Positions 4,176 to 44,366 of a stretch of 64,000 bases of DNA are shown in pieces; position 1 is the first letter of the stretch, and each line of letters starts with the position of its first letter. Under the pieces are notes generated by a model. It saw only the letters and a list, made by a program, of their open reading frames with translations, did not search any database and was not told the origin of the DNA. Source of the stretch: Xanthobacter flavus (GTDB lineage Bacteria > Pseudomonadota > Alphaproteobacteria > Rhizobiales > Xanthobacteraceae). The position numbers were made by a program, and so were the translations under genes. Where the stretch lies: the NCBI RefSeq assembly GCF_017875275.1, contig NZ_JAGGML010000001.1, forward strand, positions 682,001 through 746,000. The letters are read 5' to 3'.

Positions 4176-5129
4176 ATGGCCGAGAAAACCACCCCGCCGC
4201 CCGCGACGCTGCTCGCCGAAAGCATCGGCATGCCGCCCGTCGCCCCCGGCTTCGATGCCAAGTACATCGCCGAGCTGGGCGCCAAGGTCGCCGAGCCCAC
4301 CTCCGGCATCATCACCCTCGACCCCAAGATCCATGTCGGCCTTCCGCCGGAACTCCCCATTGTGTGGGACCCGCGCAAGGGTGAGTTCATGGCGGTCAAG
4401 AGCTACGCGGAGCAGTTCCGCCTCAAGCCCGCCCGCAAGGTCGGCACGGCCAAGGCGCTCACGCTGGAAAGCTTCATCGCCCTCGCCAACCGGCACAAGA
4501 CCGAGCACACGGCCGTGTTCGCCGATACCTCGTGGCACAAGCCCGGCTTCACCGCCGTCATCGACTATCACGACAACACCTCGGGCGGCCCGGCCGACAA
4601 CGGCAAGCACCGCATCCAATACGACTTCCCGCTCTCCGAGGAGTGGAAGGCGTGGGTGAAGCTGGATGGCGAACCCATGAGCCAGGTGGATTTCGCGGCT
4701 TTCCTCGAAGATCACATCCAGGAGCTGTGCAGCCCCACGGAGGCCGAGAAGAACACGCTGGAGCGCGATTTCGTCACCACGGTCGCGACGCCGGCGGAGG
4801 TGGTGCAGCTCTCCCGCGGCCTGCAGGTGCATATTGCGAGCCAGGTGAAGAACGCCCACACGCTCCAGACGGGCGCCGGCCAGATCCAATGGCAGGAGGA
4901 GCACCAGACGGCGGACGGCAAGCCGCTCACCGTGCCCGGCATCTTCCTCCTCAACATCGCGCCATTCTTCATGGGCGAGCCGGTGCGCATTCCCGTGCGC
5001 CTGCGCTATCGCGTCTCCGGCAAGATCACCTGGTTCTACCAGATATTCCGGCCCGACTTCTTCGTGACCGAGCGGTGTGCGCGACGACCTCGACAAGGTG
5101 CGGCAGGAAACCAGCCTGCCCGCCTTTGA
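4176..5129 (+). CDS. DUF2303 (YfdQ-type) phage protein with a C-terminal frameshift
   Basis: A 317-residue protein as read, starting behind GAAGAAAGG. The core (residues 50-295, with YAEQFRLKPARKVGTAKALT, IDYHDN, PLSEEWKAW and an RLRYRVSGKITWFYQ segment) matches the DUF2303 family, whose E. coli prophage member is YfdQ. The function is unknown. After FVTER the frame runs into an Arg-rich tail unlike the family. Removing one base (T at about 5076) restores an ending with VRDDLDKVRQE and LPAFEGAPEMAA, which I recognise as the usual family C-terminus and which would stop at 5152-5154, just before the next gene. Either the gene carries a real one-base insertion or the assembly has an error. Confidence 0.75.
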   Translation: MAEKTTPPPATLLAESIGMPPVAPGFDAKYIAELGAKVAEPTSGIITLDPKIHVGLPPELPIVWDPRKGEFMAVKSYAEQFRLKPARKVGTAKALTLESFIALANRHKTEHTAVFADTSWHKPGFTAVIDYHDNTSGGPADNGKHRIQYDFPLSEEWKAWVKLDGEPMSQVDFAAFLEDHIQELCSPTEAEKNTLERDFVTTVATPAEVVQLSRGLQVHIASQVKNAHTLQTGAGQIQWQEEHQTADGKPLTVPGIFLLNIAPFFMGEPVRIPVRLRYRVSGKITWFYQIFRPDFFVTERCARRPRQGAAGNQPARL

Positions 5130-5158: not shown

Positions 5159-5422
5159 ATGACCCGCGCCGCCGGCATCTCCCGGATCGCACATCTTGAA
5201 CGGCGCCGCCGGGAGATGGCGGCGGCCTATGTGAAGGCGACGCGCCGGCATGCCCCGCGCGCCGCCCTCGCCCAGAAGCTGGTGCGCGCCACCTGCGACG
5301 CGCTGCGCGCGGAAATCCGCGACGAGCGTGTGGCGGCCAAGGCGCGGCTTGCGCCGGGCATGCCGGACCTATTCGCCGCGCCCGACGAGGCAAGCGCTGA
5401 CGAACGAAAGGCTGCGGCATGA
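5159..5422 (+). CDS. Hypothetical small basic protein
   Basis: An 87-residue, helical, Arg/Ala-rich protein (RIAHLERRRREMAAAYVKAT). The ATG at 5159 lies 4 bases after the stop that the repaired DUF2303 frame would use (5152-5154), which supports both calls. It overlaps the next start by 4 bases (ATGA). No family is recognised. Confidence 0.5.
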   Translation: MTRAAGISRIAHLERRRREMAAAYVKATRRHAPRAALAQKLVRATCDALRAEIRDERVAAKARLAPGMPDLFAAPDEASADERKAAA

Positions 5423-5742
5423 CCGACGACATCGGCCTCGCCTTCGAGCGGATTCGCGCGCTCCAGAGCGTCACCTTTCCGGTGGCCCATCCACACAAGC
5501 GGTTCGCATGGCAGATGGACTATGCCCAGCCCGCGACCATCACGCCGGCTCAGGTGCGCCACGTGACGTATCTCGCCTGGCGCTACCGGCGGCAGATGCC
5601 GGCACACCTCGTGCCGCCCGCCGACCCCTATGCCGGTGACCCGATGCATGTGGCGCAACCGCCTGCGGAGGAGGTGCCGCCGCTGCCGGAGCCGCTGGCG
5701 CCGGAACCCGATCTCTTCTCCCGCCTAAGGACCGTCCGATGA
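5419..5742 (+). CDS. Hypothetical protein
   Basis: A 107-residue protein with a globular N-terminal 65 residues (FERIRALQSVTFPVAHPHKR, then ITPAQVRHVTYLAWRYRRQM) and a Pro/Glu-rich C-terminal tail that ends PDLFSRLRTVR. Coupled by 4-base overlaps to the preceding gene and to dnaN. The tail's DLF motif resembles the hydrophobic end of a clamp-binding peptide, and the next gene is a sliding clamp. That resemblance is only suggestive. Confidence 0.5.
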   Translation: MTDDIGLAFERIRALQSVTFPVAHPHKRFAWQMDYAQPATITPAQVRHVTYLAWRYRRQMPAHLVPPADPYAGDPMHVAQPPAEEVPPLPEPLAPEPDLFSRLRTVR

Positions 5743-7061: not shown

Positions 7062-8294
7062 TCACGATGGGTCCGGAGCTCTGACGCCGTATTGGTCCCG
7101 TGGACGGTCGTCATGAGGATGCCAGTCAGGAGACCTTTCATACGTCGTAGGAGCTTGCTCATCCATCCACATGTAAATTCCCATTCGACCAAATTTCTGT
7201 TCGTATTGCAAAAATTCATTGGGCGGCGCCGGCCGAGCCTCATCTTCTCGTACACAAATATCATCAATACAATTATTTCCAGAATAATATGCGAACTCTA
7301 TCGCAAACGTACCGTCGTCTCGCCTAGATGCCCCACGACTTCTGAAACAGAATTTCGTTATATGGTATTGCCCATATATGTCTTCGTACGACATCCATCC
7401 CCAACAAAAAATTATCCTCCAATTACGTATAATTTCTTCAATCTGTTGCTCCGGAACAGTCGCAATATTGTGAGTTATTTGAGTGCCAGCGGCGAGAACG
7501 CTGGGATCACCGGTTTCATAGCCCCACAGTCTTGGCATGTCTGGAAATGGGAACCAAGGCGGAAGAACACCTGTCGTCCATGCCATAGCGGACGCCGCCG
7601 ATCTCACGCGAAGGGCCGGCGTTGCGCCACAGTTCTTCCATACAACGTAGATTTGCTCACCCGCGAGCGTTCCATCCGGACGATATTCTGCCCTAGATGC
7701 AATGGCTTCATTGTGAGCGTAAGCTCGGAGTTGCGTTCGGCTCGACTCCATCGCAACTGCTACTCCCGCCTCTGTCGCTTTTGCGGCATTGAGTGCTGTC
7801 CTGGAAGATTCCTCGGCAATCGCAAGCGATCTGTGGGTGAGCCGTATTGTGTAGATGAGCAGGCCAGTGCCTGCCGTGGCGACAACCGTGCCAAGGACAG
7901 CTATCCAGATTTGCCACCAGGCATAGGTCGCTTGGTCCCGCGCCGCGTGAGCGGCCTCCCACTGAGCCTTGAGTTCGGAGTCAGCGCGTACATCCGCATG
8001 TGTGTCCTCGATATCGGCGCGCCGGGCGGAGGTTGGATCACTCGTCGGCGCCGCGTGCTCGTCGGCGAGTCGTTCGGTACCGGCCGACGAAGCGCCCGCA
8101 GCGCCATCCGTGACCGTCGTTGTCGTAGTGGCCTGGTGAATCTCGTTCGCTGCAGGTGACTCATTTTGGACGTCGCTCTGCGCGTCAACTGCAGTGAACG
8201 GGGATCCGGCGCCCGCTGGCGTCGCCGCAATGGCCGAAATGGTCTTCGCCGCGAACACGAACGCTATCATCGTCAATCGGAGATGGCTGAACAT
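7062..8294 (-). CDS. Secreted/membrane accessory protein of the element (moron-like)
   Basis: A 410-residue protein on the strand opposite to the surrounding operon. It begins with a signal-peptide-like segment (MIAFVFAAKTISAIAATPAG), then about 100 residues of low-complexity Thr/Ala/Glu. One clear membrane helix lies at about residues 140-165 (IWIAVLGTVVATAGTGLLIY), followed by a helical linker rich in Ala/Glu (SSRTALNAAKATEAG). A C-terminal, probably beta-rich domain carries several Trp and Tyr (WFPFPDMPRLWGYE, CWGWMSYEDIYGQYH). The 3' half of the gene (about 7130-7460) is distinctly AT-rich compared with the rest of the window. The opposite orientation, different base composition and lack of overlap suggest a separately acquired cargo gene. 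The family is reminiscent of prophage membrane proteins with a LRAYAHNEAI-like segment. Function unknown. Confidence 0.7.
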   Translation of the reverse strand: MFSHLRLTMIAFVFAAKTISAIAATPAGAGSPFTAVDAQSDVQNESPAANEIHQATTTTTVTDGAAGASSAGTERLADEHAAPTSDPTSARRADIEDTHADVRADSELKAQWEAAHAARDQATYAWWQIWIAVLGTVVATAGTGLLIYTIRLTHRSLAIAEESSRTALNAAKATEAGVAVAMESSRTQLRAYAHNEAIASRAEYRPDGTLAGEQIYVVWKNCGATPALRVRSAASAMAWTTGVLPPWFPFPDMPRLWGYETGDPSVLAAGTQITHNIATVPEQQIEEIIRNWRIIFCWGWMSYEDIYGQYHITKFCFRSRGASRRDDGTFAIEFAYYSGNNCIDDICVREDEARPAPPNEFLQYEQKFGRMGIYMWMDEQAPTTYERSPDWHPHDDRPRDQYGVRAPDPS

Positions 8295-40948: not shown

Positions 40949-41024
40949 GGGCCTGTAGCTCAATGGTTAGAGCTGACCGCTCATAACGGTTAGGTTGGGG
41001 GTTCAAGTCCCTCCGGGCCCACCA
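40949..41024 (+). tRNA. tRNA-Ile2 (CAU anticodon, lysidine type)
   Basis: A 76-base tRNA with encoded CCA. Acceptor GGGCCTG pairs with CGGGCCC. The D arm is AGCTC...GAGC, the anticodon loop CTCATAA (CAT) sits on the stem GACCG/CGGTT, and the T arm is GGGGG TTCAAGT CCCTC. CAT can mean initiator Met, elongator Met or Ile2. The short D loop (CAATGGTTAGAG) and the GGGCC acceptor match alphaproteobacterial tRNA-Ile2, whose C34 is converted to lysidine by TilS. Elongator Met remains the alternative. Confidence 0.85.
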
Positions 41025-41949: not shown

Positions 41950-42210
41950 TCAGGCCATGCCGCGACCCGTCGCGCCTTCCGCGACGGGCGTGCCGCGATG
42001 CCCCGGGGACATGACAGCCGAAACGACATGCAGGCCGGGATGGAAGCGGCTGCGATAGGCGGCCGGGGTCACGCCGATGGTTTTGGCCAAGATGCGCCGC
42101 ATGGTGTTCATGTCAGCGAAGCCGCAGTTCGTGGCGATGCGCTGGAGCGGCTGGGCGGTGTCCTCCAGCAGGCGGCGGGCGGCACCCGGGTCGGAAAGGC
42201 CGCGGCCGGC
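41950..42210 (-). pseudogene. C-terminal remnant of an AraC-family regulator
   Basis: A leftward frame without start codon reads the last part of an AraC-type double helix-turn-helix: ARRLLEDTAQPLQRIATNCGF, ADMNTMRRILAKTIGVTPAAY and RSRFH, then a short tail to a stop at 41950-41952. The spacing of 'IA..CGFAD' and 'GVTPAAYR' is diagnostic of the family (GlxA-like subgroup). The first HTH helix and the whole N-terminal ligand domain are missing, and the frame runs straight into the nitrile hydratase accessory gene at its 5' side. It is a truncated remnant at the edge of a decayed locus. Confidence 0.75.
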
Positions 42211-42211
42211 G

Positions 42212-42562
42212 TCAGGCGGCGTGCGGTTCGGCCAAGGCGGTGGACAGCGCGGCGGACAGCTCCGCCGGGTCGAGGAGGCCGGTCTTCACCACGGCCGTTT
42301 CCAGCGCGGCGAGCCAGCGCTCGTAATAGTTCCAGGACGAGCGGTCGGCGGGGTGCGCTGCCTCCCATCGGCCGATTTCCGCGATGAGTTCGTCGCGGAA
42401 ATCATCCCATTCGAAATAGCCGTTGCGCGCGAGGGTCAGGGCGACACCGAAGGCCGTCCGCTCCCATTCGCTGCCGAAGCACAGCGTGCCGTTTGCCCGG
42501 GCCGGGGTGTCCGGCTGGCCCATCATCTCGGTGACGGCGAACTGCTCGAAGCGGGTGAGCAT
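42212..42562 (-). CDS. Nitrile hydratase accessory protein (beta-subunit N-terminal-like)
   Basis: A 116-residue protein. Residues 1-110 resemble the N-terminal helical part of nitrile hydratase beta subunits and the separate accessory protein (LCFGSEWERTAFGVALTLAR, YFEWDDFRDELIAEIGRWEA, SSWNYYERWLAALE). The short length fits the accessory protein rather than a beta subunit (about 220 residues with a C-terminal SH3-like barrel). Accessory proteins help insert the metal into the alpha subunit. The frame is intact, but its partners on both sides are truncated, so it is probably a leftover without function. Confidence 0.65.
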   Translation of the reverse strand: MLTRFEQFAVTEMMGQPDTPARANGTLCFGSEWERTAFGVALTLARNGYFEWDDFRDELIAEIGRWEAAHPADRSSWNYYERWLAALETAVVKTGLLDPAELSAALSTALAEPHAA

Positions 42563-42573
42563 CGCGCCCTCCC

Positions 42574-43035
42574 CTACGCCGCGCGAGCGACGGCGACGCC
42601 CATCATCGCCTCGGGCGTGACGAGAGCTTCCAGCTCCGCCTCGCTCAGGCCCTCCGTACCGGCGGGCCGCTCAGGCACCACGAACCAGCGGATCTGCGCG
42701 CTCGAATCCCACACCTTCACCTGCGTGCTCTCGGGCACCGCGAGGCCGAATTCCTTCAAGACCACCCTCGGCTCGCGTGCCGCCCGGCTGCGGAAGGTGG
42801 GGTCCTTGTACCAGTAGGGCGGCAGGCCCAGAACCGGCCAGGGATAGCAGGAGCAGAGCGTGCAGATGATGAGGTTATGGACGCCCGGCGCATTGGCGAC
42901 CGCCCGCATGTGCTCGCCCTCGGCCCCCGCCATGCCGTCCGGCAGCGCCAGCTCGGCGATGGCAGAGGGCGTGTCGGCGACGAGACGGTCCTTGAAGCCG
43001 GGATCGACCCAGGCGCGGGCCACGATCTTGGCCCC
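42574..43035 (-). pseudogene. Nitrile hydratase alpha subunit lacking its N-terminus
   Basis: The frame covers the C-terminal about two thirds of a nitrile hydratase alpha subunit, including GAKIVARAWVDPGFKDRL, the metal claw CTLCSC in IICTLCSCYPWPVLGLPPYW and the end domain (VWDSSAQIRWFVVPERPAGTEG). The Thr in CTLCSC points to the cobalt type, which hydrates nitriles to amides. About 60 N-terminal residues that should precede are absent. At about 43032 the sequence switches into a CobW gene in another frame, so no proper start exists. It could only be read from an internal GTG (43023). I treat it as a broken gene. Confidence 0.75.
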
Positions 43036-43373
43036 GGGTTGAGACGGCTCAGCATCTCCTGGGTCGCGGCCAGGGCCGCCTCGTCCACCAGATCCACCTT
43101 GTTGAGCAGGATCATATCGGCGAAGCAGATCTGTTCGCGTGCTTCGTCGAGGGCGAGATGGTCGGCGACGTGGCGGGCGTCCACCACGGTGACGATGGCA
43201 TCGAGCGCGATCCGCGCGCGCAGGACCTCATCCAGCATGAAGGATTGGATGACGGGGCCGGGTTCGCCGGGCGATGCCTCCAGCAGACGGTTGAGGAGCG
43301 TGGTCTTGCCTGCGCCCAGGAATCCGGTGAGAATCGTCGCCGGCATCTTGTCCATCGTGCCGCCCAGCTTCAA
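43032..43373 (-). pseudogene. CobW/P47K-type GTPase (nitrile hydratase activator) with internal deletion
   Basis: The frame starts MKLGGTMDKMPATILTGFLG with an intact P-loop GFLGAGKTTLLNRLL. It then jumps from LLEASPGEP directly to GPVIQSFMLDEVL, missing about 65-70 residues that normally carry the NEFGEVGID and CxCC metal-binding motifs. After that it continues correctly (IVTVVDARHVADHL, ILLNKVDLVDEAAL, LSRLNPG) and then breaks off at the junction with the nitrile hydratase alpha fragment. Beyond the junction the frame reads the alpha gene out of phase. CobW-type chaperones deliver metal to nitrile hydratase. This copy cannot be functional. Confidence 0.75.
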
Positions 43374-43868
43374 CTAATCGTGTCGAAGTCGACAGAATTG
43401 AAGGCGACGCTCGGCTTGCGGGCAATATGCTGGAAGCGTCAGATTCTGCCAAAGGGGCTGCAAAAACGGACAAGCCCGAAAAGTTCGGCAGAGATGATTT
43501 AATTATTGTCATTATACTTACTATTTAATCGGAAAAGGCGCAACACGAATGCAGACCAACTCCGCTGCCGGCGCACAGTCGGCGGAAGCCGTGCTTACCG
43601 TTCCGACACGTCAAGCAAAGCTGCGTGGCAGGGCTCGCTCTGGCCTTCCACCGTCCCGCCGCTCCGCCCCCTCAGACGCAACCGCCCTGAGCGCCGCATC
43701 GCGCGAGGACGGCAGCCGCTCGCCATTGCCTCCTATCTCGCCCAGGCTCCGGGCGACGATGCCCGGCGCAACGGGGTCCACGCGGCCGTCGCTGCGCCGT
43801 GGCCGCCGCCCTCACTGGCTCAGGCGGGGTAAAAAGGCGCGCGCAGACAGGGTGACAAATCATCGCCC
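43374..43868. other. Gene-free stretch next to the decayed nitrile hydratase locus
   Basis: No convincing gene in 495 bases. The part at 43490-43560 is AT-rich (GATTTAATTATTGTCATTATAC) against GC-rich surroundings and could be an old promoter. Two overlapping rightward frames over 43506-43881 have the Arg/Pro-rich look of random GC-rich DNA. Nothing else is identified. Confidence 0.3.
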
Positions 43869-44366
43869 TCAGGCCAGCTGACGAAACGCACCATCGAAGT
43901 AAAGCAGCGGCTCGGCGCCGCGACAGCTGACGCCGATGACCTCTCCGACGAAGATGGTGTGCGTGCCGGCGTGGTGGCGCTCGCGCAGCCGGCATTCGAG
44001 CACAGCCACGGCTTCGGCAAGGAGGGGACAGCCGGTCTCGCCCCACCCGTGGGCGATACCCTCGAACGGCTGATCGAGCCGGCGGGCGAACCGCCCGGCC
44101 AGATCCTGCTGGTGCGCGGCAAGGATGTTGACGGCGAAGGCACCGCTGTCGGCGATCAGTCCATGGGAGGTGGTCTCGCGGTTCACCACGGCGAGGATCT
44201 GCGGCGGGGCGGTGCTGACACTGCACACGGCCGTCGCCGTCATGCCGTTGAGCTGGTCGCCCCGGCGCGAGGTGATGACGGTGACGCTGGCCGCGAGCAC
44301 GCGCATGGCCGCCTTGAAATCCGCCGCGTCCACCGGCGGTTTCTCGATGCTGGCGGAAGGGCGCAT
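43869..44366 (-). CDS. Flavin reductase, partner of the adjacent monooxygenase
   Basis: A 165-residue flavin-reductase-like (FMN-binding split-barrel) protein. Typical motifs: FKAAMRVLAASVTVITSR, LNGMTATAVCSVSTAPPQIL (flavin-binding loop), VNRETTSHGLIADSGAFAVNIL and a C-terminal EPLLYFDGAFRQL. It reduces FMN or FAD with NAD(P)H for a two-component monooxygenase. The gene overlaps the stop of the upstream LLM-family monooxygenase (44366), so the two are co-translated. Confidence 0.92.
   Translation of the reverse strand: MRPSASIEKPPVDAADFKAAMRVLAASVTVITSRRGDQLNGMTATAVCSVSTAPPQILAVVNRETTSHGLIADSGAFAVNILAAHQQDLAGRFARRLDQPFEGIAHGWGETGCPLLAEAVAVLECRLRERHHAGTHTIFVGEVIGVSCRGAEPLLYFDGAFRQLA

Follow-up and report, generated by a model that had tools for sequence, protein, structure and literature searches.

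Nitrile hydratases (NHases) are alpha–beta heteromers, and the alpha-subunit motif C-T-L-C-S-C is one that we take to be of the cobalt type. Two intact clusters co-linear with the locus described here, one from the same genus (G003) and one from another genus of the family (G026), carry in order cobW, DUF1097, beta, alpha, accessory, a CbiM-domain gene and a DJ-1/PfpI-AraC regulator, with alpha subunits 94–95% identical to the one that survives here. With the alpha fragment as query, a search of the family (296 genomes, taken from a larger group) identified loci in G026 (95% identity), G003 (94%), G034 (90%) and G046 (80%), and the regions compared were 15 kb each around the G026, G003 and G046 loci and 13.6 kb around that of G034. 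No description of the remnant was found in the literature on nitrile hydratase clusters, taken as titles and abstract openings.

Here we describe a locus in a 64,000-nucleotide stretch of the Xanthobacter flavus genome (the window) that, from its sequence, is what is left of a cobalt-type NHase cluster, at 42040–43473 on the minus strand. We consider it, with a probability of about 0.93, to be a pseudogene cluster derived from a cobalt-type NHase operon that three deletions cut down to about 1.4 kb. Reading from 43473 to 42040, the survivors are two CobW pieces, a startless NHase alpha, an accessory gene at full length and the part of an AraC/GlxA-type regulator gene that encodes its DNA-binding end (Table 1). 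Gene frames were assigned with the guidance of homology, as picking the longest open reading frames (ORFs) gave many antisense frames in this GC-rich DNA. All four genes were matched by Pfam profiles (NHase_alpha, E 1.9e-70; cobW, E 6.3e-22; HTH_18, E 8.4e-10; and NHase_beta_N, which falls in the accessory protein, E 2.9e-15), and at these coordinates the matches are far beyond chance. The survivors keep the order and orientation of the G003 and G026 clusters, whereas beta, DUF1097, the cbiM-like gene, most of the regulator, the middle and C terminus of CobW and alpha residues 1–52 are missing.

Table 1 Features of the remnant, in window positions
Feature	Position	Strand	Basis
AraC/GlxA-type regulator remnant, residues 267–314 of 349	42040..42183	-	HTH_18 E 8.4e-10; 94% identical to G003 regulator
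Deletion 1 junction; about 1.6 kb lost, comprising the cbiM-like gene and most of the regulator	42184..42200		G003/G026 block edges
NHase accessory (activator) gene, complete, 116 aa	42212..42562	-	TIGR03889 77.7 bits, cut-off 46
NHase alpha without first 52 residues	42574..43035	-	PF02979 profile positions 40–184 of 184
Deletion 2 junction; about 2.0 kb lost, comprising the C-terminal part of CobW, DUF1097, the whole of beta and the N terminus of alpha	43035..43036		G003/G026 block edges
CobW (G3E GTPase) piece, roughly residues 100–175 of 331	43036..43261	-	PF02492; DNA identity 83% to G003, 82% to G026
Deletion 3 junction; about 0.2 kb lost from within cobW	43261..43262		G003/G026 block edges
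CobW N-terminal piece with P-loop stretch TGFLGAGKTTLLN, roughly residues 1–31	43262..43355	-	DNA blocks and translated alignment
Stretch upstream of cobW with homology to intact clusters retained	43356..43473	-	G003 block 4780–4992 matches window 43473–43262, 83%

The two intact clusters locate three missing segments and so bear out the decay by several deletions that had been proposed from the letters of the window. Against G003 the window falls into four co-linear blocks (43473–43262, 43261–43035, 43036–42200 and 42184–42036), four blocks match G026 as well, and the DNA identity of the blocks to the two clusters is 71–87% (blastn). The missing segments measure 203, 2007 and 1611 bases relative to G003 and 195, 1982 and 1603 relative to G026, and they affect cobW, DUF1097, beta, alpha, the cbiM-like gene and the regulator. 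As estimated by blastn, the blocks end and resume at 4992 and 5196 in G003 (4898 and 5094 in G026) for the 0.2-kb gap in cobW, at 5423 and 7431 (5315 and 7298) for the 2.0-kb gap from cobW to alpha, and at 8259 and 9871 (8154 and 9758) for the 1.6-kb gap between the accessory gene and the regulator. Two junctions had been proposed at 43025–43040 and 43270–43285, close to the edges found at 43036/43035 and 43262/43261; to these the comparison adds the third, between accessory gene and regulator, at 42184–42200. At a divergence of 15–20% from the intact relatives, no junction repeat beyond a few bases was established, and we therefore claim no deletion mechanism.

Three of the genes at the remnant are truncated and one, the accessory gene, is whole. 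The sequence-only reading had described four fragments: this holds for the regulator, alpha and CobW, but the accessory protein aligns over 116 of 116 residues to its G003 counterpart, at 86% identity, and passes TIGR03889. The pieces had also been described as joined without spacing, but the spacing between alpha and the accessory gene is native: the end of alpha and the start of the accessory gene lie at 42574 and 42562 here and at 7887 and 7897 in G003. The description of a cobalt-type alpha lacking its start was accurate. The fragment matches residues 53–197 of the 203-residue G003 alpha at 94% identity, retains the CTLCSC metal-site motif and scores 254 bits with TIGR01323 (cut-off 249.85) notwithstanding its truncation, and no ATG precedes its conserved part, the earliest possible start being a GTG at 43023. 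The same fragment also scores 51.6 bits as an NHLP leader peptide (RiPP precursor; cut-off 50.9), an assignment that we rejected because the same model gives 56.8 and 59.9 bits to the genome's other two alphas.

CobW had been said to lack its middle, which is indeed gone, but its C-terminal part is gone too: the remainder, 94 and 226 bases by DNA block edges, encodes about 107 of 331 residues, and an alternative count of 138 includes overlapping alignments. Residue numbers of the second piece derive from the G003 block edges 5196–5423 and the gene start at 4899, and in translated alignment CobW residues 1–36 align at 43355–43248. Both CobW pieces share one reading frame across deletion 3 (ORF 42756–43373), a frame different from that of alpha (ORF 42574–43023). 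The regulator keeps 48 of its 349 residues. Beta, DUF1097 and the cbiM-like gene were all absent by tblastn (E 1e-3) from 662000–786000 of the chromosome, and the reported loss of beta therefore stands. Elsewhere in the genome, at 5057590–5058264, there is a relative 74% identical to the CbiM-domain gene of the G003 cluster (L128 8298–8975); G003 has both kinds.

We propose that the ancestor carried a cobalt-type NHase operon of cobW, DUF1097, beta, alpha, accessory, cbiM-like and regulator genes, and that the three missing segments would represent three separate deletion events. As marks of the enzyme, the CTLCSC site and the accessory gene are present and the N-terminal part of alpha and beta are absent; as marks of a pseudogene, an intact co-linear orthologous cluster exists and disabling changes hit several genes. 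Because NHase acts as a heteromer, the locus would not be expected to yield an alpha–beta enzyme with beta and alpha residues 1–52 gone. Likewise, the CobW piece would not be expected to work as a metal GTPase, because the stretch after the P-loop and the whole C-terminal part are gone, and the complete accessory gene would be a passive leftover. Counted against decay are the whole accessory gene, the open alpha frame, the lack of visible relaxed selection, the in-frame 0.2-kb cobW deletion and the alpha score above the NCBIfam cut-off.

The surviving pieces show no visible erosion, alpha being open and 94% identical to G003, and because they are open and well conserved it is plausible that the deletions are young. 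Over 395 codons, the changes unique to each branch (synonymous/non-synonymous) number 43/16 in this genome, 53/8 in G003 and 44/11 in G026. With 16 non-synonymous and 43 synonymous changes here versus 19 and 97 in G003 and G026 pooled, Fisher's test gave p = 0.11 in a codon-level parsimony count that has no outgroup and little power.

The genome holds two further NHase-family alpha genes, at 3,216,683 and 1,483,788, each directly downstream of a beta C-domain, and these positions (3.216 and 1.483 Mb) account for both beta C-domain matches in the genome. The locus at 3.216 Mb, like the original cluster, has NHase alpha, beta, accessory and DUF1097 genes and, unlike the remnant, has the first three complete: a 224-aa beta (TIGR03888, 211.6 bits; cut-off 152.2), a 210-aa alpha (280.5 bits; cut-off 249.85) that is 61% identical to that of the window, and a 112-aa accessory protein (77.5 bits; cut-off 46), with DUF1097 next. 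An acetamidase/formamidase-family gene lies about 2.4 kb from this set, and the 12 kb covered at this locus gave no match to G003 CobW. At 1.484 Mb, the N- and C-domains of beta are split between two reading frames, both upstream of alpha (L007 5008–6343), an arrangement that resembles thiocyanate hydrolase. Although the split-beta architecture is alike, the sequence scores do not assign the locus to that enzyme: the alpha reaches 190.9 bits against the thiocyanate hydrolase cut-off of 291.45, and its NHase score is 253.3 (cut-off 249.85). Genes near this locus resemble, by eye, a nitrate/taurine-type ABC transporter. The loss of nitrile metabolism that had been read from the window is thus not supported, as the chromosome has two further alpha genes beside beta genes, one of them in a complete beta–alpha–accessory set. 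As predicted from its genes, the organism's nitrile capability may persist through these loci, and most likely it is they that would allow the cell to tolerate the loss.

The chromosomal setting of the remnant differs from that of the intact relative. The G003 flank beyond the cluster (L128 10585–14707) maps to 4.20 Mb in this genome, where there is no NHase cluster, and the position of the cluster therefore differs between two species of the genus. A tRNA-Met gene (40949–41024) is found on the left side of the remnant; at this gene synteny with another genome of the genus, G009, is broken, and it resumes after about 71 kb, at 794.5 kb. The part of this intervening stretch within the window (41025–64000) is a mosaic of G009 blocks, 83–92% identical, that lie at 0.987, 1.495–1.503, 1.666–1.672, 3.98 and 3.44 Mb in G009; the 746–786 kb stretch had no match in the few G009 regions compared. 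The idea of a classical island, bounded by an att copy of the 3′ end of the tRNA-Met gene, is not supported: exact matching finds 20 bases of that end (41000–41019) once in the genome, and a 25-base form has a single occurrence in the window even when up to 3 mismatches are allowed. Searching for PF00589, the one integrase family covered, gave no match at 723–795 kb, the nearest being at 691.6 kb. About 400 bases between the remnant and a flavin reductase gene (43473–43872) are covered by none of the listed matches to the genus's other 13 genomes, and GC content is locally low at the left end of this stretch (50–57% at 43301–43600).

An intact relative with the same compact arrangement had been named as the finding that would speak for a functional form, and it was looked for among 84 loci (probably 83 distinct), namely the best 80 of 588 confirmed places in named genomes and the four family loci. 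Two of the loci, L129 and L017, lie on contigs of equal length (46,646 bases) and are probably one and the same. Because the query itself lacked the alpha N terminus, truncated alphas were at no disadvantage in the search. No locus of the 84 had the compact form: in G003 numbering, alpha starts no later than residue 18 in all 84, compared with residue 53 in the window. All 84 also have a beta gene, of which at least 60% is covered in 83; in the exception (L084) the beta match starts at base 45 of its contig, whose end cuts the gene. Coverage of at least 60% was found for CobW in 53 of the 84, for DUF1097 in 54, for the accessory protein in 79, for the CbiM-domain gene in 13 and for the regulator in 52. 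Within the genus, an NHase alpha exceeds the family cut-off in 6 of 14 genomes, and only this genome (100%) and G003 (94%) have the window type; the others are 61% identical (G009 and G002) or weaker (G008 and G013; E 7.7e-50 and 2.0e-43). That the truncated alpha and the accessory protein work together, or with subunits from other loci, as a functional compact form would suit the whole accessory gene and an alpha fragment that is open, retains CTLCSC and has few amino-acid changes. We nevertheless judge it very improbable, as such an alpha occurs at none of the related loci, beta is absent nearby, the conserved part of alpha is preceded by no ATG, the CobW frame enters alpha out of register and the alpha of the second copy is only 61% identical. 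Fainter still is the prospect that expression of the accessory gene, and perhaps of the shortened alpha, continues and assists cobalt loading of the NHases encoded elsewhere; if it were true, the deletions would have made an operon into a stand-alone helper gene.

The junctions are those of the assembly, a single contig, and an assembly or sequencing artefact could in principle have dropped segments from an intact cluster. This would need three wrong junctions, and the assembly holds no displaced missing parts: the NHase alpha and beta genes elsewhere in it belong to the second and third copies, which are distant, and the sole cbiM homologue found represents a type present in G003 in addition to the copy in its cluster. 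We therefore regard an artefact as extremely unlikely. A variant of the main reading deserves more weight, although we hold it to be unlikely: recombination may have brought an already-broken piece of the cluster here, in place of decay on the spot. The flanks of the remnant differ from those of the G003 cluster, whose neighbouring genes sit at 4.20 Mb here, its surroundings in the window are a mosaic relative to G009, and the cluster family also occurs on plasmids. However, a source with a truncated alpha is missing from the 84 loci, and none of 137 matching plasmid records covers 80% of the query.

Decay of an intact operon by deletion remains our preferred reading. It is ordinary gene decay, with nothing surprising about its biology, and its value is that of a clean, small case of operon decay with the intact forms at hand. 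Because the alpha fragment passes the NCBIfam cut-off, profile-based annotation would call it 'nitrile hydratase subunit alpha', though no enzyme is expected; surveys of NHase presence and absence should demand a beta adjoining the alpha. Among known systems, the intact clusters of G003 and G026 are closest to the remnant, and those of Rhizobium and its allies are also close: in the ten top-ranking of the best 80 of 588 loci (one from Azospirillum, the others from Rhizobium, Ensifer and allied records), alpha is 87–91% identical to that of the window. In 14 NHase clusters from Rhizobium, Sinorhizobium/Ensifer, Neorhizobium, Boseaceae, Azospirillum and others, cobW, beta, alpha, accessory and AraC-type regulator genes were matched in 14 of 14. 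The alphas of these Rhizobium/Ensifer/Azospirillum-type clusters are 83–91% identical to that of the window and, unlike the window, all 14 clusters have both the alpha N terminus and beta.
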